A stretch of 64,000 bases of DNA from Cladochytrium replicatum (Eukaryota > Chytridiomycota > Chytridiomycetes > Cladochytriales > Cladochytriaceae), in NCBI GenBank assembly GCA_025526935.1, contig JAHLKD010000015.1, positions 434,001 to 498,000 of the forward strand. The letters run 5' to 3'. How positions within the stretch are numbered: position 1 is the stretch's first letter; every line of letters begins with the position of its first letter. Made by a program: the position numbers and the translations under genes. The notes under the pieces were generated by a model. The model saw only the letters and a list, made by a program, of their open reading frames with translations. It ran no database searches and was not told the origin of the DNA. Of the stretch, positions 12,505 through 59,838 are shown in pieces.

Positions 12505-12835
12505 TAGAGATCACTCAAGTACCGTCAATGAGTTAAGAAAGTATCTGGGTGGACAGAATCTTATTGCTAGTAACATTGGTAGAGAGGTTAGTTGTACTTG
12601 ATAGAGATCACTGAAGTACCGTCAATGAGTTGAGAAAGTGGCCGGGTGGACAGAATCCTGTTGCTAGTAACATTGATAGAGAGGTTAGTTGTATTGGATA
12701 GAGATCACTCAAGTACCGTGTCCGGGTGGACAGAATCCTATTGCTAGTAGTATTTGTAGAGAGGTTAGCTGTACCTGATAGAGATTACTGAAGTACCGTC
12801 AATGAGTTGAGAAAGTGTCTGGGTGGACAGGAAAT
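12505..12835 (-). repeat. 97-bp satellite array, block 1
   Basis: About three and a half copies of the 97-bp unit that recurs through the island. The copies carry the core GTACCGTCAATGAGTT followed by GAGAAAGTGTC and GGGTGGACAGAATC. One copy is shortened, running from ACCGTG straight to TCCGGGTGG. Strand is given relative to the block at 18025-18880, taken as plus. The block leads directly into a terminal sequence shared with 22150-22454, so it looks like the right end of a second, otherwise missing element. Confidence 0.85.
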
Positions 12836-13132
12836 ACATCCTCGATGTCTGTTGTGATGCAAATTGTTTGATACATACAAAACTTCTATTGCGTCTTCTT
12901 GGAAAGTGTCCGCGTGGACAGAAAGAACAATTGCTTCGTTTTAGCTTCCCTATCACATCGGGTTTTACCCAGGTCTGATTCTCGACCCGAGAAGGGTTTT
13001 CCTACTTGACCCGAGACCCGACCCGGATCCGACCCAAAAATTTTTCATGAAAACCCAGCAATCGGGTTGGGTTAGTTTGGTCAATGGACCCGGACCTGAC
13101 CCGAAAGACCCTAAAAACCCGCCGATCCTTAA
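12836..13132. mobile_element. Solo right end of a hAT-like element
   Basis: This stretch matches 22150-22454 almost base for base. It shares the TTTGATACATACAAAACTT region, GTCCGCGTGGACAGAAAGAA, a segment dense in ACCCG/GGGTC motifs from about 12956, and the terminus CCGCCGATCCTTAA ending at 13132. No transposase lies to its left, so I read it as a truncated relic of the same family as the element at 15622-22454. Confidence 0.7.
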
Positions 13133-14070: not shown

Positions 14071-15107
14071 TCAGCTATTTGGGAACAATTTTGTTAATAG
14101 GATGTAGAGGTGAAGAATTGAATGAGACTTACCAAGTAGTCTAGGAGTTGTGGTGGGAAGAAGACACAGACACCGGGGTCGGGTCCGGGTTTCAGTGGTG
14201 ACCCACACCAAACCCTTTGGGGATTTCCATTGTGAAATCTCCTGGGAAGTTGCCTGCTTCTCCCTTTCCATTGCAGCAGTGATCTCCCTGAATCTTGCTA
14301 GCTCTTCGTGCTCGCCGTGCTGAATCAATTCACCCGCCCTGACCAATTCATCAATGAGAGCCTTCTCTCGCACTTCTGCTGCGATACGGAATCGTTCATT
14401 GCAGTCTCTTCAAGATCTTTTGTCATGTTCAACAGTCGTTCTGACTGTTTGAGGACCTGTTTTGTCCTTTCACGGTCCTCATCTGCTTGTTTGATGGTCG
14501 CTTGGAACTCGTCAACCTTTGCAGTGACAGGCATTCCTCTGTAAATGCCGTACTTGTGTCCCTGCCGCCTGTAAAAGTCCAGAAATATTGTTTCCTTCTG
14601 AAAGGAAGAGCTTTTCAAGCACTCCATACGATAGGCGTTTGCTGCTGTTATGAACTCCATTCGTCCACTGCATTCATCGTGAATTTCGTTCAGGGCTTGA
14701 CGAACTAGCTTGCTGTCAGAGTTAAGTCGGTCGATCAACCCTTGAAGAACAAATCTTGGGCCGCATTCATCACGATTTGTTTGACAGTTGCTGATGAAGT
14801 CCTCCGAGTCGTAGCTGTGGCCGCTTGCTTTGAATTTTTGATACCAAAGTCGTATGTCTGAAGCAGGACAGAGTCCGTCGATGAGCAAATAGTCAGCATC
14901 CCCTTTAGTACCATGTCGCGCCGGTTTCTTTGAAGGAGCTGTCGATTTGACATCTGTCGATTTGACATCAAGGCCAACTTCTGCTTCTTCCACTTCAGAA
15001 CCCGATCCCAGAGATGTTTCAGGTGCAGTCACAGGTTCTGCACTTGATTCTCTTTCAGATGATGGTCTGGATTGTTTTAACGCTCGCTTCTTTGTAGTTC
15101 GAGGCAT
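14071..15107 (-). pseudogene. Broken copy of the element's accessory ORF
   Basis: From about 15107 down to 14216 this is a near-identical copy of the 5' half of the 560-residue ORF at 15923-17605, including the start (MPRTTKKRALKQS). A deletion of about 7 bp near 14390 relative to the intact copy shifts the frame inside the coiled-coil region. At 14216 the gene sequence stops and joins a GGGTC-rich end (14175-14215) of the kind found at 15635-15690, so the 3' half of the gene and everything between was lost. The promoter region and flanking satellite (15108-15400) are duplicated with it. Confidence 0.8.
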
Positions 15108-15242
15108 GGTGTTTGTACTGTTTGTCGTGGGAAGATACTGGCCCGGTGTTCTTAGCCGGAATGTTACAGGAATGTATGCTATAATACTTCCCTGACACTA
15201 TAGTTTTCTACCCGATCTGAAAATAACAATAAGCTAGGGAAG

Positions 15243-15621
15243 AAACTGGCTAGTAACATTGATAGAGAGGATTCTGTCCGGGTGGACAGAATCTTATTGC
15301 TAGTAAAATTGATAGAGAGGTTAGCTGTACTTGGTAGAGATCACTGAAGTACCGTCAATGAGTTGAGAAAGTGTCCGGGTGGACAGAATCGTATTGCTAG
15401 TAACATTGATAGAGAGGTTAGTTGTATTGGGTAGAGATCACTGAAGTACCGTCAATGAGTTGAGAAAGTGTCTGGGTGGACAGAATCCTATTGCTAGTAA
15501 CATTGATAGAGAGGTTAGTTGTATTGGGTAGACATCACTGAAGTACCGCCGTCAATGAGTTGAGAAAGTGTCTGGGTGGACAGAATCGTATTGCTAGTAG
15601 TATTTGTAGAGAGGTTAGCTA
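15243..15621 (-). repeat. 97-bp satellite array, block 2
   Basis: Nearly four copies of the 97-bp unit in the same orientation as block 1. The first 150 bp is almost identical to 17748-17890, showing that the duplication of the accessory ORF carried its satellite along. The last unit is cut after GGTTAGCT, directly against the left terminal repeat at 15622. Confidence 0.85.
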
Positions 15622-15800
15622 TTAAGGTTCGGCGGGTCCGGGTCGGGTCCGGGTTTCAGTGGCGACCCGCACCAAACCCTTTGGGTCGGGTCGTGTTTGT
15701 CTGGGGACCCGCAGGGTCACTGACGGGTACAAAGGGAATACCCGGACCCGAAGTGGTTGAAACCCGTACCCGACCCTGACCCGCCGGGTTTTTGCTGCCC
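15622..15800 (+). repeat. Left terminal repeat and GGGTC-rich subterminal region
   Basis: It starts with TTAAGGTTCGGCGGGT, the inverted counterpart of the right end. It is followed by repeated GGGTCC/GGGTCGGG motifs and their complement (GACCCG, ACCCG) up to about 15795, ending GACCCGCCGGGTTTTT. Arrays of short GC-rich subterminal motifs are typical transposase-binding regions of hAT elements; binding here is inference. Confidence 0.65.
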
Positions 15801-15922
15801 AGGAGAGGATTGATTGAATTTTGAGTTAGACCACGGATATTTACATGAACACTTTGTGTCTGTGTGGACAGTGTGTATTTTAGAAACACTATCGTTAAAA
15901 GAAACAAAACTCCACTGAGCAA

Positions 15923-17605
15923 TCACAAGTTGATAGGTGGAACAGCCCAAATCAGCTTCTGTATCTGGTTCATATCGTCAGAGTCCCATCCACCACTGGT
16001 TACGTCCTTCGCCAACCCAGTCCTGATGAACCGATCAATGTCGTCATTTGAAAGCATGAAATCCTTGGCTAAACCTGTCTTCCAAGGTTTCCAATCCACC
16101 TCAGGGAGCGTTATGGACGAAAGATGCCCGATGTATGCCGTCCAGAACCTTAGCCACTCAGAAGGATATGCATCCACTAATGCCCTGAACATGCGATAGA
16201 TAGTGGCAGACGTACTTAGCGAATTATTGTGCCGTATCCAGTTTCCGAGCAAAATGTGCACCCTAAGAAGAGTAAGGCTGCTCCGAGAACTGCTACTTGA
16301 AGTTAATATTCGGCTTGAGCGGTCGTCTGATTCAACAAATATGGGCCGTAAAAACTCATTTCGGGAGAGGACTTCGTAGTTTACATTGACGTACTTGATT
16401 GATGGTGGAAGAGACGGCAATTTAAGGTCATAAATAACCTCATTGATCTTATGCATCTGGAAGCAGATACCCTGGATGACCTCTTTCACCAAAAGGATAG
16501 CCGTACGACGATGCTGCTGCAGGCTAAGCAATGCAAGGGAACTCGTTGGAGAACTGGTTCGATGTACCTTCGGAATTCTACCAATCCCCTTGATAGCCGA
16601 CGATATGCTTATTAGGCCGCCTGTTGATGTTGGCGCCGCAGGTGCTGCAGCTTCTGAATGACCAGCCTGTCGTTTCAGAGCAGCAAGCTCTCCCTCCAGG
16701 GCGGTCACACGTGATTTCCATTGTGAAATCTCCTGGGAAGTTGCCTGCTTCTCCCTTTCCATTGCAGCGGTGATCTCCCTGAATCTTGCTAGCTCTTTGT
16801 GCTCGCCGTGCTGAATCAATGCACCCGCCCTGCCCAATTCATCAATGAGAGCCTTCTCTCGCACTTCTGCTGCGATGCGGGTCCTTCTCTCGTTCATTGC
16901 AGTCTCTTCAAGATCTTTTGTCATGTTCAACAGTCGTTCTGACTGTTTGAGGACCTGTTTTGTCCTTTCACGGTCCTCATCTGCTCGTTTGATGGTCGCT
17001 TGGAACTCGTCAACCTTTGCAGTGACAGGCATTCCTCTGTAAATGCCGTACTTGTGTCCCTGCCGCCTGTAAAAGTCCAGAAATGTTGTTTCCTTCTGAA
17101 AGGAAGAGCTTTTCAAGCACTCCATACGATAGGTGTTTGCTGCTGTTATGAACTCCGTTCGTCCACTGCATTCATCGTGAATTTCGTTCAGGGCTTGACG
17201 AACTAGCTTGCTGTCAGAGTTAAGTCGGTCGATCAACCCTTGAAGAACAAATCTTGGGCCGCATTCATCACGATTTGTTTGACAGTTGCTGATGAAGTCC
17301 TCCGAGTCGTAGCTGTGGCCGCTCGCTTTGAATTTTCGATACCAAAGTCGTATGTCTGAAGCAGGACAGAGTCCGTCGATGAGCAAATAGTCAGCATCCC
17401 CTTTAGTACCACGTCGCGCCGGTTTCTTTGAAGGAGCTGTCGATTTGACATCTGTCGATTTGACATCAAGGCCAACTTCTGCTTCTTCCACTTCAGAACC
17501 CGATGCCAGAGATGTTTCAGGTGCAGTCACAGGTTCTGCACTTGATTCTCTTTCAGATGATGGTCTGGATTGTTTTAACGCTCGCTTCTTTGTAGTTCGA
17601 GGCAT
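15923..17605 (-). CDS. Unrecognised 560-residue transposon accessory protein
   Basis: A single uninterrupted frame from ATG 17605 to TGA 15923. Residues 1-65 are a basic, Ser/Glu-rich disordered leader (PRTTKKRALKQS) that could hold a nuclear localisation signal. Residues 75-210 form a compact region with several Cys and His (LIDGLCPASDIRLWY, SNCQTNRDECGPRF, NEIHDECSGR). Residues 210-320 are Glu/Arg/Lys-rich heptad sequence, a coiled coil. Residues 340-560 form a second mixed region with FWTAYIGHLSS and a Trp-containing tail. I do not recognise any of these. The gene lies 1.3 kb downstream of the hAT transposase on the same strand, inside the same terminal repeats, and a broken copy sits at 14071-15107. 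By position it resembles the second gene that some transposons carry; its function is unknown. Confidence 0.7.
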   Translation of the reverse strand: MPRTTKKRALKQSRPSSERESSAEPVTAPETSLASGSEVEEAEVGLDVKSTDVKSTAPSKKPARRGTKGDADYLLIDGLCPASDIRLWYRKFKASGHSYDSEDFISNCQTNRDECGPRFVLQGLIDRLNSDSKLVRQALNEIHDECSGRTEFITAANTYRMECLKSSSFQKETTFLDFYRRQGHKYGIYRGMPVTAKVDEFQATIKRADEDRERTKQVLKQSERLLNMTKDLEETAMNERRTRIAAEVREKALIDELGRAGALIQHGEHKELARFREITAAMEREKQATSQEISQWKSRVTALEGELAALKRQAGHSEAAAPAAPTSTGGLISISSAIKGIGRIPKVHRTSSPTSSLALLSLQQHRRTAILLVKEVIQGICFQMHKINEVIYDLKLPSLPPSIKYVNVNYEVLSRNEFLRPIFVESDDRSSRILTSSSSSRSSLTLLRVHILLGNWIRHNNSLSTSATIYRMFRALVDAYPSEWLRFWTAYIGHLSSITLPEVDWKPWKTGLAKDFMLSNDDIDRFIRTGLAKDVTSGGWDSDDMNQIQKLIWAVPPINL

Positions 17606-17747
17606 GGTGTTTGTACTGTTTGTCGTGGGAAGATACTGGCCCGGTGTTCTTAGCCGGAATGTTACAGGAATGTATGCTATAATACTTCCCTGACACTATA
17701 GTTTTCTACCCGATCTGAAAATAATAATAAGCTAGGGAAGAAACTGG

Positions 17748-17996
17748 CTAGTAACATTGATAGAGAGGATTCTGTCCGGGTGGACAGAATCTTATTGCTA
17801 GTAAAATTGATAGAGAGGTTAGCTGTACTTGGTAGAGATCACTGAAGTACCGTCAATGAGTTGAGAAAGTGTCCGGGTGGACAGAATCTTATTGCTAGTA
17901 ACATTAATAGAGAGGTTAGCTGTACCTGATAGAAATTACTGAAGTACCGTCAATGAGTTGAGAAAGTGTCCGGGGGGACAGAATCCTATTCTACCC
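17748..17996 (-). repeat. 97-bp satellite array, block 3
   Basis: About two and a half units lying immediately upstream of the accessory ORF. The first part duplicates 15243-15400. It is followed, after roughly 28 bp of unique sequence (around 17997-18024), by block 4 in the opposite orientation. Confidence 0.85.
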
Positions 17997-18024
17997 AGAC
18001 AGACACAGTGACACTCAGTCTCCC

Positions 18025-18880
18025 AGATTTCTGTCCACCCGGACACTTTCTCAACTCATTGACGGTACTTCAGTAATCTCTATCAGGTACAGCTAACCTC
18101 TCTACAAATACTACTAGCAATAGGATTCTGTCCACCGGACACTTTCTCAACTCATTGACGGTACTTCAGTGATCTCTACCCAATACAACTAACCTCTCTA
18201 TCAATGTTACTAGCAATACGATTCTGTCCACCCGGACACTTTCTCAACTCATTGACGGTACTTCAGTGATCTCTATCCAATACAACTAACCTCTCTATCA
18301 ATGTTACTAGCAATACGATTCTGTCCAACCGGACACTTTCTCAACTCATTGACGGTACTTCAGTAATCTCTATCAGGTACAGCTAACCTCTCTACAAATA
18401 CTACTAGCAATAGGATTCTGTCCACCCGGACACTTTCTCAACTCATTGACGGTACTTCAGTGATCTCTACCCAATACAACTAACCTCTCTATCAATGTTA
18501 CTAGCAATAGGATTCTGTCCACCCGGACACTTTCTCAACTCATTGACGGTACTTCAGTGATCTCTATCCAATACAACTAACCTCTCTATCAATGTTACTA
18601 GCAATACGATTCTGTCCACCCGGACACTTTCTCAACTCATTGACGGTACTTCAGTGATCTCTGTCAAGTACAGCTAACCTCTCTAATAATGTTACTAGCA
18701 ATAAGATTCTGTCCACCCGGACACTTTCTCAACTCATTGACGGTACTTCACTGATACTTCACTGATCTCGATCAAGTACAACCAACCTCTCTACAAATAC
18801 TACTTGTAATAGGATTCTGTCCAGGCGGTCACTTTCTCAACTCCTGGACGGTACTTCAACAGATGAACAGTCTAAACAAC
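18025..18880 (+). repeat. 97-bp satellite array, block 4 (inverted)
   Basis: Nearly nine units; the period of 97 bp was measured between GATTCTGTCCA starts at 18220, 18317 and 18414. Units fall into a few alternating subtypes: ATCCAATACAACTAACC with TATCAATGTTACTAGC, or ATCAGGTACAGCTAACC with TACAAATACTACTAGC. This points to amplification of longer multi-unit blocks. It ends 10 bp before the hAT stop codon, so the transposase transcript's 3' untranslated region probably runs into it. Confidence 0.9.
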
Positions 18881-18889
18881 AATTTATAT

Positions 18890-21334
18890 TTAAAAGAGTG
18901 GGTTATCATCAGTTGCTTCCAACTCTAATACCACATCAAAATCCTCGCCAAAATTATGCACCTTTACAAAATCCTCACTAACATCACTTTTTGAATCTAG
19001 GGAATCATTTTTGAACGGTTCTTCAGCACTCAATTGATGCAACCAGTCATGACGGCACATCAACGCATTTATTGTTCTTGGAGCAAGGCGGTTGCGAGTT
19101 GCAGGTACCAAATCAACCCCGGCTGAAAACTTTCGTTCGACTGGAGCGCTTGTTGCTGGTATTCCTAAATTAGTCCTATTGCCATCTGGCTTAGGGCTGG
19201 AAAGTTCAGCACTTCCAACGGTCTTCCACCAGTCCATAATATTATTGATTGGCTTCCCATCAGAATCAATACCGCGGAGTACCTGATCGCCAAGGTAGCG
19301 ATCCAGCTCATCTTTTTCCTCAGGAATCTCTTCTTGCCAGATGAAAACGGATCTAATGGCTCTCAAGCGTTCAGCGTCCATTTTTTTCTGTCTATCACCG
19401 GAAGCTCCGCTCGAATCGTGTCGACGTGCTGGCGTGTTTCCAAAAACATCGGCACCACTGTTCTTGATTTTCCGTGACTTATACGATTCCTCCCAGACTT
19501 TCCGCACTAGGGTGACCTGATCCCTTCCTACATCTTTCTCCCAAGCCTTTGAAAATCGATAATATTGATCCTTAAAACGAGGATCGAGTACCGTAGCAAC
19601 TGCTAAACACGGGCTCTTAGCGATTGAGTAATATATTCTCAGCTTATCTAGTGCATTTCGAAATGCTTTGGTGAAAGTTTCATCCAATTCTGCCTCCTCT
19701 AGGTCCTCCAGTTGATCGATAAGATCTTTGTAAAATGGAATAACAAGCCGAAGTGTTGGATATCTAGACCCCTCGATTGCCTTTGATATAACCTCGAAAA
19801 CACTTAAACCATCCCGGATCTTCTGTAGGACCTCCCATTGCTTTGGATTTATTGACCAATCTTTCAAAGAATCTTCAATCCAGCATATTTTGTCCATTGC
19901 CTCTCGTAGCTGTAAGGCTCGTTTGACCATATAGAACGTGCTATTCCAGCGAGTTGTCACATCGATAATTGGTAATAGAGGAACCAGTTTCACAAATCGG
20001 CACGAATCAATAAATGAGCTTCGTCGTTTTGGGGAAGACCGGATTCCTCTGACTAGCCGTCGAAGAAGGTTTATGACATTAACGCCGGAGTTATCGTCAT
20101 TTGCGACTGTGTCCCCTGCGGGCGCGAATGTATCGATAAAATCCTTTGCTGCAAGATTGATAATGTGTGCCATACACCGCATGTGTTGAGTTTCTGCAGA
20201 CCACGCAATATCCCTATCTTCCAAGAGCGTCTCCAGCTTAGCACTCATGGTAAAGTTGTTTGAACCGTTGTCGGTTGTAATGCACAATAAGCGTTCACCC
20301 GATAGCATGCCAAATTCATCCAGACACTTGACAAGCTGACTAGCCATGGCGACGCCTTCATGCTTTCCAACCATCGGAATCATCTGCAGCAGCAAGTCCT
20401 GCGGCTCCCATTCTTTCGTGATGAAGTGGGCAGTAATTCCAAGAAAAGAAATCTGGTTCTTCGATGTCCAATAGTCAGCTGTTATTGATACTTTTGAAGG
20501 TGAACCAACAATCAGACCTTTAATGAGCTCCTTCTGCCTATCGTAAAGATCGATCATCTCCTTTTGCTTCACTGCTTTTGCCGTCTTTGGTGTATTGTTT
20601 GGCTGAAAAGTCTTCAGCATGCTGACAAAGAACTCGTTCTCCACAACAGTAAATGCCTGATTGTCTGCAGCAATCCAGTCCAAAATTGACCGCCACGCTA
20701 CGTCTGGATTGAACACAAAGTTTTGCTCCTTCTCCTGCGAGCCGAAATTCAATGTCTGTTGTCCCTTGGGGACGATGTCCAACAGTCCAAGCGACCTGGC
20801 AATACTTCCATGGTGGTTTTTCAGATGCCGGAGGAAGTTTTTTGTTGATCCCGTCTTATCGACCTTCTGGCTCCACTTGCATTTCGCAACCAAACATGTT
20901 CTCAGACCATTATCAACCTTATAGTAATCCTTCGCTATGCCGCCTCGACTACCTCTACAGTCCGACATGCTATCAACATCTGCGTCTGATGAAAGCATTG
21001 ATGGTTGAACTGATCCAGCTGCAGGCTCCTGTCGCACTGAAGAGTCAGCAAAACTAACGTCGGCAGGAAGCTCTGGTGCATGCTGAGAAGCCAGGCCCAA
21101 CTCGCTGGAGTCATTGGAAGAAGATGTGGAGCTCGGCTCTCGAGCGCTGTTGTTGCCACCGTGTCCTGATACACGTCTGCGTTTGTCCTGCATGCTGTTC
21201 CCCTCGCTGGATGCCTCTGAAATTTGGGGGGCTGGCAGACTTCGCTTCCGTGTGTCAAGCGGATGACTGTCCACAAGTCTTTGGCTTGCGTCGGACGCTG
21301 CCTTACGCTTTGGTTTAACAAAGGCGGCGTCCAT
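18890..21334 (-). CDS. hAT-family transposase, apparently intact
   Basis: One uninterrupted frame of 814 residues from ATG 21334 to TAA 18890. Residues 1-130 are a Ser-rich basic leader. A BED-type zinc finger follows (CLVAKCKWSQ...FLRHLKNHH, about 145-178). The RNase H-like catalytic fold shows the first Asp in SITADYWTS (about 287), the second in CITTDNGSNN (about 351) and the family's CxxH in MRCMAHIINLAA. The C-terminal hATC dimerisation region runs from DRYLGDQVLRG through NLGIPATSAPVERKFSAG to LMCRHDWL. All expected landmarks are present with no internal stop, which suggests a young, possibly active copy. The gene is flanked by satellite blocks in opposite orientations. The protein should act in the nucleus, cutting and rejoining the element's ends. 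Confidence 0.93.
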   Translation of the reverse strand: MDAAFVKPKRKAASDASQRLVDSHPLDTRKRSLPAPQISEASSEGNSMQDKRRRVSGHGGNNSAREPSSTSSSNDSSELGLASQHAPELPADVSFADSSVRQEPAAGSVQPSMLSSDADVDSMSDCRGSRGGIAKDYYKVDNGLRTCLVAKCKWSQKVDKTGSTKNFLRHLKNHHGSIARSLGLLDIVPKGQQTLNFGSQEKEQNFVFNPDVAWRSILDWIAADNQAFTVVENEFFVSMLKTFQPNNTPKTAKAVKQKEMIDLYDRQKELIKGLIVGSPSKVSITADYWTSKNQISFLGITAHFITKEWEPQDLLLQMIPMVGKHEGVAMASQLVKCLDEFGMLSGERLLCITTDNGSNNFTMSAKLETLLEDRDIAWSAETQHMRCMAHIINLAAKDFIDTFAPAGDTVANDDNSGVNVINLLRRLVRGIRSSPKRRSSFIDSCRFVKLVPLLPIIDVTTRWNSTFYMVKRALQLREAMDKICWIEDSLKDWSINPKQWEVLQKIRDGLSVFEVISKAIEGSRYPTLRLVIPFYKDLIDQLEDLEEAELDETFTKAFRNALDKLRIYYSIAKSPCLAVATVLDPRFKDQYYRFSKAWEKDVGRDQVTLVRKVWEESYKSRKIKNSGADVFGNTPARRHDSSGASGDRQKKMDAERLRAIRSVFIWQEEIPEEKDELDRYLGDQVLRGIDSDGKPINNIMDWWKTVGSAELSSPKPDGNRTNLGIPATSAPVERKFSAGVDLVPATRNRLAPRTINALMCRHDWLHQLSAEEPFKNDSLDSKSDVSEDFVKVHNFGEDFDVVLELEATDDNPLF

Positions 21335-21454
21335 TTTTGCTGTGGTGTGGCTGGAACGTTACCGGCTCTAAGTGTCCAGGTGCACAGAAAGCACAGCTCT
21401 CGAGGTCTGTCGTGGTAGAAATTGTTTGTTACAGAACTTCCGTTGTGACTTCTT

Positions 21455-22150
21455 GGAAAGTGTCCGGGTGGACAGAATCGTATTGCTAGTAACATTGATA
21501 GAGGTTAGTTGTACTGAGTAGAGATAACTGAAGTACGTCAATGAGTTGAGAAAGTGTCTAGGTAGACAGAATCCTATTGCTAGTAACATTGATAGAGAGG
21601 TTAGTTGTATTGGGTAGAGATAACTGAAGTACGTCAATGAGTTGAGAAAGTGTCCGGATGGACAGAATCTTATTGCTAGTAACATTGATAGAGATGTTAG
21701 TTTGTACTTGATAGAGATCACTCAAGTACCGTCAATGAGTTAAGAAAGTGTCTGGGTGGACAGAATCTTATTGCTAGTAACATTGATAGAGATGTTAGTT
21801 GTACTTGATAGAGATCACTCAAGTACCGTCAATGAGTTAAGAAAGTGTCTGGGTGGACAGAATCTTATTGCTAGTAACATTGATAGAGATGTTAGTTGTA
21901 CTTGATAGAGATCACTCAAGTACCGTCAATGAGTTAAGAAAGTGTCTGGGTGGACAGAATCTTATTGCTAGTAACATTGATAGAGATGTTAGTTGTACTT
22001 GATAGAGATCACTCAAGTACCGTCAATGAGTTAAGAAAGTGTCCGGGTGGACAGAATCTTATTGCTAGTAACATTGATAGAGAGGTTAGTTGTATTGGGT
22101 AGAGATAACTGAAGTAAGTCAATGAGTTGAGAAAGTGTCCGGGTGGACAG
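21455..22150 (-). repeat. 97-bp satellite array, block 5
   Basis: About seven units upstream of the hAT start codon, oriented opposite to block 4. Four consecutive units between about 21680 and 22060 are practically identical (TTAAGAAAGTGTCTGGGTGG variant), showing recent local amplification. Together with block 4 it makes long, imperfect inverted flanks around the transposase. Confidence 0.9.
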
Positions 22151-22454
22151 AAAATACATGCCTCGATGTCTGTTGTGATGCAAAATTGTTTGATACATAC
22201 AAAACTTATATTGCGTCTTCTTGGAAAGTGTCCGCGTGGACAGAAAGAACAATAGCTTCGTTTTAGCTTCTCTATCACATCGGGTTTTACTCGGGTCTGA
22301 CTTTTGACCCGAGAAGGGTTTTCCTACTGGACCCGATACCCAACCCGGACCCGACCCGAAAATTTTCCATGAAAACCCGGCACTCGGGTCGGGTACATTT
22401 GGTCAATGGACCCGGACCCGACCCGGAAAGACCCTAAAACCCGCCGATCCTTAA
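22151..22454 (-). repeat. Right terminal region of the hAT element
   Basis: A unique segment with TTTGATACATACAAAACTT and GTCCGCGTGGACAG, then ACCCG-dense sequence from about 22280, ending in ACCCGCCGATCCTTAA at 22454. It is nearly the same as 12836-13132. GTCCGCGTGGAC echoes GTCCGGGTGGAC of the 97-bp unit, so the satellite may have grown from the terminal sequence. Confidence 0.65.
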
Positions 22455-22774: not shown

Positions 22775-23285
22775 GTAGATAGCGAGCCTGAGGTACCGAC
22801 GTTGGAGGTAGCAACGGCATCACCGTTTCGCGCAGAGTGGATAGAGGCGATACAGTTGGAAAATGCCGAACTCACAGCGATGGGAGTTTTCAAGATTGTT
22901 GACCTGCCGCCGGAGAGAAAGTGGTAAAGGCGAAATGGGTGGTGAGAAGGAAGACACATGCGGACGGGAGGAACGACAGGTTCAAGGCTTGACTAGTCGC
23001 AAAAGGCTTCTCACAGCAAGCAGGCGTGGACTTCGATGAAACGTTTGCATCAGTGCTGGACTTTGCAACCCTCAGGCTGATCTACACGCTGGCCCCGACT
23101 TTCAAATGGAAGATCAAGAAGGGAGACATGAGGACACCCTACCTCAGCGCATTACTCAAACACAAGTTGTACATGGAGATTCTGCCAGGGGTCGAAGGAT
23201 ACAAAACAGGAAAGGTATATTTGGTCTTGAGGGCTCTATATGGTTTGCGGCTGTCGGCATTGGAGTGGAATCAGAAGTTTGACTG
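22775..23285 (+). pseudogene. Ty1/copia reverse transcriptase, N-terminal piece
   Basis: The reading gives FRAEWIEAIQLENAEL, then FKIVDLPPERK, AKWVVRRKTHADGR, LVAKGFSQQAGVDFDETFA, KWKIKKGDMRTPYL and ALYGLRLSALEWNQKFD. These are the ordered landmarks of a copia reverse transcriptase up to the first half of the palm. It is broken by a one-base shift near 22920 and a TGA where KARLVAKGF normally has Arg (near 22992), and the frame ends just after WNQKFD. The rest of the enzyme continues in inverted pieces to the right. Confidence 0.85.
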
Positions 23286-23286
23286 A

Positions 23287-23548
23287 GATGACCTCGAAAC
23301 CTTTTTGCCACCAGTGCATCATCCACAAATACCGCTACCAGTGCTGAGTTTGCTAAGCTTCCTCCCCAGAGGACGTAGATGCATGAGTCGCTTTGCAGTC
23401 GTCGCAAACCCGCCTCTCTCATTGCGCGAGCGAAGCTCTTCTCCAAAGAAACTGGCATGGTGGGACATGATGATTCTCCCTGTGTCCCAGTGGTAAAACA
23501 ACCACATTCCTGTCTCATCAATCCCAACGAAGATTGTTCGCCAAGCAC
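23287..23548 (-). pseudogene. Ty1/copia reverse transcriptase, inverted catalytic piece
   Basis: Read on the minus strand it contains FARAMREAGLRRLQSDSCIYV followed by ALVAVFVDDALVAK. This is the part holding the catalytic VDD (usually YVDD) that should directly follow WNQKFD of the plus-strand piece ending at 23285. It is therefore a segment of the same gene turned around in place. Confidence 0.8.
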
Positions 23549-42955: not shown

Positions 42956-44175
42956 TCAGTTTGCCTTCTTGGGGGCAACGAGCTTATCACCCTTGTAGGT
43001 CTTGAAGAAGTGAAGGAGAGTTGAAAATGCTAATAAGCATTCACAATAAGTCATTAATTCCAAACTCTGTTGGGCCGTTGTAACATACCACAAAGTGCCG
43101 CAATTGCGACTGCCCAGTAGAACGAAGCGAGGTCACTTGATGATCCAACAGGTGGTGCACCAGGCTGCACATTCCTGAATGCTGGAAGCGCGAATAGCAA
43201 TGCGACGCTTGCGGCAAGGATCGGAGGCTCAGGTTTCGATCCCAAGAACCACAGAGAAATGCAGATAGACGCTAGCGAAAGCGATACGATCCACATGAGT
43301 GCTCCAACAAAGATGGAAAACACGATGACCGTATTTGCACGCGTGATAGTCACATCGAACCAAGCCGTATTGACAAACTCCGAGACGATGCTCAAGTCTC
43401 CAGGGATACTAGTGGATACTGCGTAGCCTGGGACTACGCCGTACAGGTATACGTTGATGACGAATGGAGCGGAGCTGCGGTTGGCCGAAGTGTCGGAAAT
43501 TGAAGCGGAAAGGACGACGGCTTTCTCGTAGCGGTCGATGGGGTAGTTAACGGGGTCGTCGCGCTGAGCGGCAAAGTTTGTTGTACTCGAGTTCAGGATC
43601 GCGCTAGAATCAATAAGGTTGACCGAAACTTCTTGCGACGGGGTGAGGAGCGCATTGTTGTTTCCCACGAATGTGACGGTCTTGTCATTGATGCTCAGCG
43701 TGACGGTGCGGTTGGTCCCGAGACTGGATCCACCAAAGTTTGGGGAGGCGATGAGCGGTGCGGGGTTGAGGTTAATACTGAGCTTGAGAAGGCCAGTGGA
43801 GGGGTCAAAAGACGTCATCTTGATGCCCAGTTCCACACCATTGACGTCTGCGGTTGTGTTTGTGCTGTCGTAGCGCATGATAACGCTCCCATCGGTACTT
43901 CTCTTCACAGCATTGCTCTGACTGTTGGTGACGGAGAGGTAGATGGCAATAGCTACAAAAAGCGCAGCGAGAGCGGTAAAACCTAACTTCACAAACAACC
44001 ATGTCCGTGCGGTGATGCCCTTTGGCTGTGGTTTTTGAAGCGAGGGAGACTCTTTTGCTGCAGTTGGCTGCTCGACATGGACGATGGTGTGTTCATTGTT
44101 GGGAACCAGGTTCCCATTGGATGATGTTCCGGCGTTTCCGGTTTGCGAACGGACGGGCTCGTATGCGGTGGCCAT
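42956..44175 (-). CDS. DUF4436 membrane protein, copy 1
   Basis: Two exons: 44175-43089 and 43029-42956, in phase over a 59-bp intron, giving 386 residues. Layout: a Pro/Asn-rich N-terminus of about 60 residues; membrane helix 1 (LFVKLGFTALAALFVAIAI); a beta-rich domain of about 180 residues with several NxS/T sites and the family hallmark DDPVNYPIDRYEKAVV; then two or three more helices (FSIFVGALMWIVSLSLAS, ASVALLFALPAFRNVQPG, FYWAVAIAALCA) and a basic C-terminus ending KKAN. ALPAFRNxQPGAPPVG is typical of DUF4436. Function unknown. First member of a tandem triplet; all three share the intron position at the Leu-Cys-Ala/Gly codons. Confidence 0.88.
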
Positions 44176-44457
44176 AAGTAAAAGAGATAGAGGATATGAT
44201 CTGTTCTTGCAAGAATCTTAAATAGCTAGTTGTCTCGTTTTTTTTCACTCCTGTTTGTCATTCTGAATTACTTGGTGTGCAAATTTTTTTGTCCGAGACA
44301 CCCGATGTCTGTCCGAAAGTTGAAAATTCACTGCTTTTATGGCATGGGGTGGCTGATACCCTGGGAGATACATTACAGAGCGTAGCAATCACAGCAGAGT
44401 TGAATGATTAGATCTATTGTGATGAGCTTCTGCCCAAATGCGTTGACATGGCATTGT

Positions 44458-45713
44458 TCAGACTTCCTTCTTCGGCGTGACCGGTTTATCTCCTTTGTAG
44501 CATTTGAAAAAGTGCATCAATGTTGAAAATGCTGAATAGAAGATGATAAGCATAAAGTTGAAACCCATAAAACACGATATGAAGCATTACCGCAAAGGGC
44601 CGCAATGGCGATCGCCCAGTAAAACGAAGCAAGGTCACTGGACGATCCCACAGGCGGAGCACCAGGTTGCACGTTCCTGAAAGCGGGGAGGGCAAACAAG
44701 AGTGCAGTGCTTGCAGAGAGAACCGGTGGCTCTGGCTTGGAGCTGAGGAACTAAAGCGAGACGCAGATTGACGCGAGAGAGAGAGAGAGAGAGAGAGAGA
44801 CGATCCACATCAAAGCCCCGACAAATATTGCAAAGATGATGACCGTGTTACCGCGCGTGATGGTGATGCCGAACCACGCTGTATTGACATATCGATTAAT
44901 GATGCTTAAGTCCTCCGGAATGCTGCTTCTAATGGCGAAACCTGGAACTACACCGTAGAGGTATGCATTGATTGTGAATGTAGCGGAGCTCCTGCTCGAC
45001 GATGTGTCGGTGATGGAAGCAGACACAACGATGGCCTTATCGTAGCGGTCGATGGGGTAGTTGACAGGATCGTCACTGTCTGCGGAGACGTTGGTGTCAT
45101 TGGCGAGCAGACTCGATTCGAGGAGACCAACAGAAACGTCTTGCGAGGGAGTGAGAAGCGCGCTGTTGCTTCCCACAAAGGTAGCCGTTTTATCGTTCAC
45201 GCTGACGGCGACCGTTCGGTTGCTACCAAGACTAATTCCTCCAAAGTTCGAAGATGCGAGCAAGGGATCAGGGTTGAGGTTTATGTTCAACTTGAGGAGT
45301 CCAGTTTCGGGATCAAAACCAATCATTTTGATCGTAAGCTCCACACCGTTGAGTCCCGAAGGAGGGCTGGCGCTGTCGTAACGAACAATACCGCCTCCCT
45401 CGGTGCTCCTTCTCACAGCGTTCCGCTCGCTGTTAGTGACTGAGGTGTAGATGGCAACCGCGAGAAGGATTGCCGCTAAAGAAGCAAAGCCGATCTTAGC
45501 GAAAAGCCATTTTTGCGCGGAGAGCCCAGCTTGCTGGGTTGGCGGCGGTGCAGAAGGAGCTGGACTCATCGGAGCGGATTCTTTCGGGGTTGGAGGCTCT
45601 ACCTGAACGACTGTTTGATCTGGAACGTTCCCGCCGGTGAATGGAGATGACCGCTCATACACAGATACCCCGTTTCCACCTTGTAAAGCATTCGATTGCT
45701 GCCCAGTAGCCAT
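44458..45713 (-). pseudogene. DUF4436 membrane protein, copy 2, with premature stop
   Basis: Exons 45713-44591 and 44531-44458 match the other two copies in phase and layout, except for a TAG at 44751-44753 where both paralogues have TGG (Trp in SLWFL). A four-residue expansion from a GA microsatellite (44775-44800) sits just before it, turning VSLSLAS into VSLSLSLSLAS. Translation would stop after 321 residues, before the last membrane helices. The downstream exon sequence, including the conserved AFSTLMHFFKCYKGDK end, is still clean, so the break is recent, or the stop is read through or is a sequence error. I chose the ATG at 45713 (MATGQQ), matching copy 3, rather than the one 36 bp upstream. 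Confidence 0.75.
44775..44800. repeat. GA microsatellite inside DUF4436 copy 2
   Basis: Thirteen GA dinucleotides on the plus strand. The corresponding place in copy 3 is 12 bp shorter and imperfect (AAGAGACAGCGAGA), so the expansion kept the frame. Confidence 0.9.
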
Positions 45714-46375
45714 GATGCAAACGGTCCGTGTGCTTTGAGAGAATGCCATCTTAGGTTATGTAGCAACGATCTGTTTCAGTTGGTCAGTGCGTCTTCAATC
45801 CGAGGGTGTCTGCGTATCAAGGCATTGTCATGGTTCAAGTTCTGAGACTGCGAGAGGCAATAATTAAGAAGATTATTTAGAATGTATGTGGAACCTACCA
45901 TTTTGGGGTGGCTTTCCCACGCCGCAATATGAAACAATCATCCACACCTCGACCAATCCGGCTCGGGAGGTATTTGCTCGATAATTTTTCAGGAGCGCTT
46001 TTCCTTTCACACCAAGTCCGAGCATTACACCTTCAACAATGACTCCAGCAGTATAAGGAGAACATGGTCTTTGTTTCCATCAGTTATAGGCCCAGAATTT
46101 CAGAGAGAATCATCTATGTTGAATTTTCAGCCCGGCAGATTAAGTACTCACAAGTTTGGTTGGATATTGCCTGGTGGCTCAATAGTAATCGTTGTCAAAG
46201 GACGAAGAGATGGAGAAACACCTTTCCCCCTTATTTTCTACAAAAACTTCACCTAATTCCCCCTCTTCGAGAACATGCAGAGTGTAGTAATGTGATTTGA
46301 TTTAATGAAACACAACTATACATAAGATTTTAACTCAACAACCTAAAAAACATTGTAGGAAGACCCCATAATGAG

Positions 46376-47645
46376 TCAGTTATCCTTCTTCGGAGTAATC
46401 GGAATATCTCCCTTGTAGTTCTTGAAAAAGTGCAGGAGCGTCGAAAATGCTGCAAGGAAAGCTAAAATGAGAAATCAACCTCAATGTAACAATTGATCGA
46501 GCCTTACCACAAAGTGCTGCAATGGCGATTGCCCAGTAAAATGAAGCCAAGTCACAAGAAGCACCAACAGGCGGAGCACCGGGCTGTATATTCCTAAACG
46601 CCGGGAGTGCGAACAGAAGTGCGGTGCTTGCGGCCAGCACCGGAGGCTCAGGCTTTGAGCTAAGGAACCAAAGCGAGATGCATATCGACGCAAGAGACAG
46701 CGAGACGATCCACATCAAGGCACCGACAAAGATTGAAAACGCGATCACGTTATGAGTGCGGGTGATGCTGATGTCGAACCACGCGGTGTTGACGTACTTT
46801 GTGATGATGTTGGAATTCCCAGGGATACTACTGTGGATTGAGATGCCTGAAACTATACCAAAGAGGTAGGCATTGATTATGAAAGGTGCGGAGCTTCGGT
46901 TGGCTGAAGTGTCGGTGATGGAAGCAGAAATCACGATGGCCTTATCGTATCGGTCGATAGGGTAATTAACAGGATCATCCCGGTCTTTCACCACATTTGA
47001 GTTGTCGGTTCTCAAGCTTGATTCGAGGAGACCGACAGAAATGTCCTGAGAAGGTGTCAAGAGTGCGTTGTTGCTTCCGACAAACGTGACCGCCTTGTCG
47101 TTAACATTAACGGTGACCGTTCGGTTGATGCCTAGACTTTGGCCTTCGAAGTTGGGAGACGCCAGAAGCGGAGCAGGGTTGAGGTTAATGTTCAGCTTCA
47201 GCAGTCCAGCGGTAGGATCAAAGCCAACCATCTTGATCGAAAGCTCCACACCGTTGAGGCCAGCAGGGGGGTTCGCACTGTCGTAGCGAACAATACCGCC
47301 CCCTTCCGTGCTCCTTTTCACTGCGTTCTTCCGACCGTTGGTTACGGAAATGAATATGGCAACCGCAACAAAAATTGCCGCTAAACAAGAAAAGCCGATT
47401 TTTACTAAGAGCCATTTTCTTGCCTTGAGACCTGGTTGCTGAGTTTGTGTGGGTTCTGGTGTTATAGGCGTCATCGGAGTAGATTCCTTTTGGGCCGGAG
47501 GCTCAAGCTGCACGACTGTATGATCGGAAGTTCCATTGGCTCTTCCGTTGCCGTTGAGTGGAAGTGGCCTCTCGTAAACTGGACCTCCATTCCAGCGAAC
47601 GTCATTCCAACCCTTTGCTGCGGTTGGTTGTTTTCCGGTGGCCAT
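46376..47645 (-). CDS. DUF4436 membrane protein, copy 3
   Basis: Exons 47645-46508 and 46449-46376 are in phase over a 58-bp intron, giving 403 residues. The intron happens to be open in one frame, so an unspliced reading is also possible, but the spliced end (AFSTLLHFFKNYKGD) matches the paralogues. Layout as in copy 1: Pro-rich cytosolic leader, helix 1 (LLVKIGFSCLAAIFVAVAI), glycosylatable beta domain with DDPVNYPIDRYDKAIV, then FSIFVGALMWIVSLSLAS, ALLFALPAFRNIQPGAPP and FYWAIAIAALC. Copies 2 and 3 are closer to each other (shared MATG start and GGGIVRYDSA) than to copy 1. Confidence 0.88.
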
Positions 47646-59596: not shown

Positions 59597-59838
59597 GAAA
59601 TAGTAAATACCAGTAGCTGAAAGAGGAGTTCTTGTTTCATCTCATTTGGAATCGTTGATTTTACCATATATGGAATGAAATAGTAAATACCAGTAGCTGA
59701 AAGAGGAGTTCTTGTTTCATCTCATTTGGAATCGTTGATTTTACCATATATGGAATGAAATAGTAAATACCAGTAGCTGAAAGAGGAGTTCTTGTTTCAT
59801 CTCATTTGGAATCGTTGATTTTACCATATATGGAATGT
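59597..59838. repeat. Three-copy 80-bp minisatellite
   Basis: An 80-bp unit starting GAAATAGTAAATACCAGTAG and containing GAAAGAGGAGTTC and ACCATATATGGAATG is repeated three times with no visible differences (unit starts 80 bp apart at TAGTAAATAC: 59601, 59681, 59761). Such perfect copies mean recent tandem duplication. It lies in the gene-free stretch 59257-60600 downstream of the kinase-WD40 gene. Confidence 0.95.

Follow-up and report, generated by a model that had tools for sequence, protein, structure and literature searches.

A two-gene hAT transposon with an orphan helical protein gene and dyad-site arrays in Cladochytrium replicatum

Analysis of a 64,000-nucleotide stretch of Cladochytrium replicatum DNA (hereafter the window; positions 434001-498000 of contig C15, JAHLKD010000015.1, in a genome assembly of 50.5 Mb and 198 contigs) revealed a hAT transposon that carries, besides its transposase gene, a second gene encoding a 560-residue protein of no known family (ORF560) and three arrays of a 97-bp unit. 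The element extends from 15623 to 22453 (TAAGG...CCTTA), boundaries placed there because the outermost base varies between copies. The first-pass annotation had proposed a 16-bp terminal inverted repeat (TIR) at 15622..22454; the tips are indeed inverted, but they measure 15 bp and differ by one T/A substitution. It had correctly located both open reading frames on the same strand, as well as oppositely oriented 97-bp blocks around the transposase gene.

Read in plus-strand coordinates, the left half of the element comprises the left tip, an ACCCG-rich stretch, ORF560, its upstream region, an array (usually 2 units, with 1-4 seen across copies) and a spacer. The right half comprises an inverted array (2-34 units), the hAT gene, its upstream region, another array (1-11 units) and the right end. 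In the window copy, 2 units (+) lie upstream of ORF560, 8 inverted units behind hAT and 7 units (+) upstream of hAT (Table 1). All three arrays are thus internal, and the earlier description of satellite-bearing ends does not hold, the outer left array belonging to a neighboring copy.

Table 1. Features of the element and of its neighbors in window coordinates; ACCCG/CGGGT counts are compared with 2000 mononucleotide shuffles.
Feature	Position	Strand	Remark
Left tip, 15-bp TIR TAAGGTTCGGCGGGT	15623..15637	+	458 exact tips genome-wide; control 0
Left subterminal ACCCG/CGGGT-rich stretch	15623..15821	.	14 motifs/200 bp; shuffles mean 0.68, max 4
Isolated dyad TGTCTGTGTGGACA	15857..15870	.	235 bp from left tip; in 28/28 left-end rows
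ORF560, 560-aa accessory gene	15923..17605	-	helical, coiled coil ~205-316, no known family
P1, ORF560 upstream region	17606..17761	-	
2-unit 97-bp array upstream of ORF560	17773..17990	+	
8-unit inverted 97-bp array	18029..18858	-	other copies 2 to 34 units
hAT transposase gene, 814 aa	18890..21334	-	open frame; dimerisation domain altered in window copy
Dyad TGTCCAGGTGCACA, 1 mismatch, upstream of hAT	21373..21386	.	start of type-B unit
7-unit 97-bp array upstream of hAT	21456..22152	+	
Isolated dyad TGTCCGCGTGGACA	22229..22242	.	212 bp from right tip; end of type-B unit
Right subterminal ACCCG/CGGGT-rich stretch	22245..22453	.	14 motifs/210 bp; shuffles mean 0.46, max 5
Right tip; reverse complement TAAGGATCGGCGGGT	22439..22453	-	
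Neighbor remnant: truncated ORF560 copy (5' part), its upstream region, 3 array units	14222..15618	-	
Neighbor remnant: 3 array units and right end, 92% identical	12544..13131	+	

The genome contains 458 exact copies of the 15-bp tip TAAGGWTCGGCGGGT and 2296 exact copies of the core of the 97-bp satellite, while the reversed patterns, searched genome-wide as a control, occur 0 times each. Together with the window, 29 fetched loci yielded 26 tip pairs, one of which is a mis-pair, leaving 25 true pairs. The first 20 loci were the best matches to the left end of the window element and the 3' part of ORF560, a selection biased toward copies retaining ORF560; the other nine were picked among 100 listed tips, partly for short or unusual length. 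Following the first-pass annotation, we looked for 8-bp target site duplications (TSDs) and for empty sites. Exact TSDs flank 13 of the 26 tip pairs (one of them, L014, counted with a 4-bp offset), the window copy not being among them. For two copies with both genes full length between the tips (L015 and L017), the flanks rejoined with a single TSD were recovered without interruption at all 40 places scored for either copy, at 99-100% identity (208 and 249 candidates, respectively). These uninterrupted flanks imply that the hAT gene, ORF560 and the arrays move as one unit. Two further copies are inserted, with a TSD, in relatives of their own: L011 has landed in a sibling's array region, and L032 in a hAT copy that has diverged. 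The family is young and abundant. The element is a two-gene hAT cut-and-paste transposon present in hundreds of copies, with deletion and gene-free derivatives on the same tips; a hAT transposon with an unfamiliar second gene and satellite units between shared tips, as first annotated, is what the genome contains.

Siblings harbor 10 of the 57 tip flanks (5 in hAT, 4 in array units, 1 in ORF560; loci L011, L013, L019, L021, L024, L031, L032, L037 and the window), and self-insertion looks to exceed the share of the genome that siblings occupy. At L014:1190-1200, the left tip is separated from its target duplication by an additional TAAG.

ORF560 and hAT form a pair. Conserved 30-mers, with up to 2 mismatches, number 303 for ORF560 and 266 for hAT genome-wide. 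Pairing was counted from the listed exact 30-mer matches on contigs C1-C37, that is 99 of 100 listed for ORF560 and 82 of 100 listed for hAT. Among these listed matches, 56 of 99 ORF560 copies and 56 of 82 hAT copies have their partner in the expected order and strand at 3.4-8.2 kb, compared to controls of 1/99 for the wrong side and 5/99 for the opposite strand; 43 ORF560 and 26 hAT copies are unpaired, and those of them that were fetched are deletion derivatives or rearranged. The possibility raised at first, that transposase copies would consistently lack the second gene, is contradicted by this pairing. The other one, ORF560 occurring alone with its own termini, fares no better: the four hAT-less copies of ORF560 (L009, L010, L031 and L032) sit on the same hAT tips, and no other termini for ORF560 were seen among the fetched loci.

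Between the tips of the 25 true pairs, both genes or parts of both are found in 18, ORF560 without hAT in the four just named, hAT without ORF560 in one (L037, which has two right tips) and neither gene in two (L029 and L030), the gene-free copies measuring 534 bp (L030) and 626 bp. The hAT-less copies have lost the stretch between the array regions along with hAT, and two rearranged copies (L018 and L020) carry hAT inverted. Among the near-full-length fetched copies, the frame is open in 10 of 20 for ORF560 and in 12 of 20 for hAT, both frames being open in four siblings besides the window copy.

Against a cut-off of 21.4 bits, the C-terminal dimerisation domain PF05699 scores 72.7 bits in the transposases of L021 and L027 and 36.4 bits in that of the window copy. 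The window gene had been called intact; although its frame is open, it departs from the siblings over a short part of the dimerisation domain. The RNase-H-like core, PF14372, scores 25.1 and 23.6 bits, below its cut-off of 27, and its putative acidic residues were judged by eye only. A C/C/H/H pattern is likewise seen by eye near residues 147-174, and no Pfam BED domain matches the transposase at E up to 1. Among solved structures, the one matching the transposase by sequence is that of Hermes. With no TSD at its tips, a neighbor's array at its left and an altered dimerisation domain, the window copy is not the best example of the family; that it is an intact active element is not supported, given the missing TSD and the altered domain.

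Each 97-bp unit contains the dyad TGTCC-N4-GGACA, so that what had been taken for a satellite is an array of dyad sites. Outside the arrays, the element holds three further dyads within 1 mismatch (15857, 21373 and 22229), and 53 kb of window sequence outside the element hold none. Of the 29 right-end rows, 27 have the right isolated dyad, within 1 mismatch, at 212-214 bp from the tip, and the two that depart from this are an older right end in L013 and L029; the left one keeps a fixed distance in every row (Table 1). A second unit, type B (86-93 bp), is found beside the arrays and in gene-free copies. It has 14-17 of 18 core bases in common with the type-A unit, 10 of the 18 being preselected because type-B units were found by a dyad scan. 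The spacers of A and B are 0.51-0.62 identical compared to 0.54-0.57 after shuffling, whereas B spacers compared with one another reach 0.64-0.78. Each of the 25 true tip pairs retains one or more dyads with no more than 1 mismatch, down to the gene-free copies, with just one dyad in L029 and two perfect dyads 86 bp apart in L030. At the level of sequence, these comparisons show the arrays to multiply the dyad, the only part common to both unit types, which is also found singly some 212-235 bp from both tips. The arrays also act as recombination substrates, as seen from the copies with inverted hAT and from the middle-deleted copies.

The type-B unit occurs at 55 genomic places and is the hallmark of a sister group, older and diverged, whose gene-free copies measure about 530-630 bp; no autonomous partner of this group was found.

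ORF560 matches no Pfam family above cut-off and has no relative among PDB sequences, where one match, to a coiled coil, was obtained at E 0.76. The AlphaFold model run from the single sequence of the whole protein is all-helical, with a confident coiled coil at about residues 205-316 and low confidence elsewhere; modeling residues 62-205 by themselves brought no improvement, and the quality of both models is insufficient for fold searching. The predicted local distance difference test (pLDDT) reaches 75-89 over approximately residues 220-310.

Substitutions among 20 copies of each gene carry two further signals. C>T changes are 14.9 times as frequent at CpG as at non-CpG sites in ORF560 and 7.0 times in hAT. 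An excess of this kind is the usual mark of CpG methylation and suggests that the host methylates the element. Substitutions of ORF560 common to at least two copies comprise 16 nonsynonymous, 19 synonymous and 1 stop, compared to 23.4, 10.6 and 2.0 expected (p 0.004), and all 158 substitutions together give p 0.03. For hAT, the p-values are 0.08 for all 172 substitutions and 0.07 for 153 singletons. ORF560 is likely, but not certainly, under amino-acid constraint, certainty being withheld because only one of six tests is strong.

We tentatively favor, at slightly short of even confidence, a two-gene hAT in which the orphan protein, helical and with a coiled coil, would read the dyads and keep the element expressed or assembled. 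The ORF560 protein may dimerise through its coiled coil, and a dimer would suit a dyad site; it could then bind the dyads that lie inside the ends as well as those in front of each gene. Coating of the dyads would keep the element expressed in a methylating host, or would help to assemble the ends, in the manner of VANC on VANDAL elements. The hAT protein would cut and join the tips, and it probably reads the ACCCG-rich subterminal stretches. A more specific form of this proposal would make ORF560 a sequence-specific anti-silencing protein that arose in a fungal hAT lineage independently of VANC. By binding the tandem dyads that the element multiplies in front of its two genes, it would relieve them of CpG methylation and silencing, and protein and array unit would have coevolved. 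By analogy, this is conceivable and rather unlikely. Several observations weigh against a dyad-reading role. Pfam recognizes no DNA-binding domain in ORF560, and the mean pLDDT is poor (46.3 for the whole protein, 47.6 for residues 62-205 alone). The 122 singletons of ORF560 carry no selection signal (p 0.29), nor do the 19 shared substitutions of hAT (p 0.45). In 109 distinct type-A units, conservation of the dyad exceeds that of the remaining sequence by little (0.978 vs 0.941), and part of the agreement between the cores of the two unit types was built in by the scan. The anti-silencing proposal also predicts that the arrays are protected from CpG decay. By region, decay per 100 sites is 4.45 in the right end, 3.48 in P2, 2.84 in ORF560, 1.48 in the left end, 1.45 in hAT and 1.34 in P1, which is not consistently lower near the arrays; at array CpGs it is 4/622 in the spacer and 18/622 in the dyad.

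The main rival assigns the reading of the dyads to the transposase, which would bind them via an N-terminal zinc finger, the arrays being amplified subterminal repeats and ORF560 serving otherwise, for example in host contact or target choice. hAT transposases do bind subterminal repeats, and the BED domains of Hermes are described, in the excerpted source, as binding a quasi-palindrome cooperatively (PMC10368747). The gene-free L030, too, retains the tips and two perfect dyads, as sites of a transposase would. We nevertheless find this rival somewhat unlikely: the ACCCG/CGGGT motifs, at 14 per tip region, are the more ordinary candidate for the transposase, dyads lie upstream of both genes, far from the tips, and a Pfam BED domain was not detected. 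It is improbable that the arrays have no binding role at all and are mere recombination substrates made by slippage and unequal exchange, with ORF560 possibly still of importance. Their wide range of unit numbers, the hAT-inverted copies and the four middle-deleted ones would fit such an origin, but the dyad core is retained despite unrelated spacers, and dyads persist where both genes are gone and keep constant distances from the two tips.

That ORF560 is a functionless passenger, such as a captured host gene, would agree with its lack of a known domain, with only half of the fetched full-length copies being open and with the unconstrained singletons. Its copy number close to that of hAT, the constraint among shared substitutions and its retention with its own array in the four fetched hAT-less derivatives, which the query partly favored, make this very improbable. 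The window region is a nest with two neighbor remnants, and one could imagine that an ORF560 repeat of independent origin, a satellite and a hAT element had become nested by chance; we give this next to no credence, as the same order recurs in at least 18 of 25 tip-paired loci. A chance nesting of separate repeats is refuted by the empty sites of the two full copies.

Its sequence features place the element in hAT, and not with VANDAL, Galileo/Foldback or the TET-bearing (TET+) hAT7 elements. VANDALs are Mutator-like elements, and the domains found here are those of hAT rather than of a Mutator-like transposase. As in Ac, Hermes and Tol2, there is an 8-bp TSD, a short TIR (15 bp) and a C-terminal dimerisation domain; unlike in that superfamily, a second gene of no known family and long internal dyad arrays are present. 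VANC acting on VANDAL in Arabidopsis is, as an analogy, the closest working parallel: as far as the consulted part of that account goes, the anti-silencing protein is drawn to a short motif present many times over in non-coding tandem repeats, and the host methylates the element, the short motif in non-coding arrays and the methylating host being common to both systems (PMC5735166). ORF560 is set apart from VANC by the Pfam search only, in which it has no match above cut-off.

The claim that the architecture was undescribed is unsupported in its broad sense, because two-gene hATs are already described in Puccinia, where hAT7 families carry a TET/JBP second gene and a 7-bp TSD (PMC12730594, in part). 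The TET+ hAT7 elements resemble the present one as fungal hATs with a second gene, theirs being thought to oppose methylation; fungal TET/JBP carriers are candidates, without tested function, for escape from silencing (PMC12730594). They differ in that ORF560 has no TET/JBP match (no Pfam family above cut-off) and that the TSD here is 8 bp instead of 7 bp. Tandem arrays are not mentioned in the consulted portion of that report, in which the term 'tandem repeat' appears 0 times (PMC12730594). Galileo, of the P superfamily, has tandem repeats within long TIRs, and Galileo/Foldback elements share with ours variable-number tandem repeats inside a DNA transposon and rearrangements between copies, according to the sections used (PMC4168063). 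By contrast, the element described here has 15-bp TIRs and internal arrays, and no long inverted repeats of tandem units. MarorhAT-10 of the agaric Marasmius oreades, a hAT of 3,396 bp, likewise has gene-free relatives (597-631 bp, cf. 534 and 626 bp here), and the excerpted text describes a transposase and neither a second gene nor arrays (PMC9674265).

The combination of a hAT with an orphan accessory protein and dyad arrays was not seen among the listed results of searches in the open-licence PMC literature, Repbase and closed journals lying outside the search, which does not prove its absence. To our knowledge, accessory proteins for the escape of transposons from silencing come mainly from one plant lineage, that of VANC. 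The present family, a two-gene hAT that multiplies its putative binding site in visible arrays and resides in a genome with the signature of CpG methylation, makes a convergence of anti-silencing systems directly testable. It also illustrates that a DNA transposon can carry a 97-bp 'satellite' as cargo to hundreds of places.

To the left of the window element lies a nest of siblings with remnants of at least two further copies; in the nearer one, the truncated ORF560 copy spans 14222-15107 and the array, outside the window element, 15275-15618. An apparent broken Copia-type pol fragment, identified by reading only, adjoins the right tip (22900-23330). Elsewhere, the window contains a gene for a Glyco_transf_15 protein, which points to a fungal host, a minus-strand row of three similar membrane-protein genes (43054-47645), one of which matches DUF4436, and three identical 80-bp tandem units at 59597-59837.
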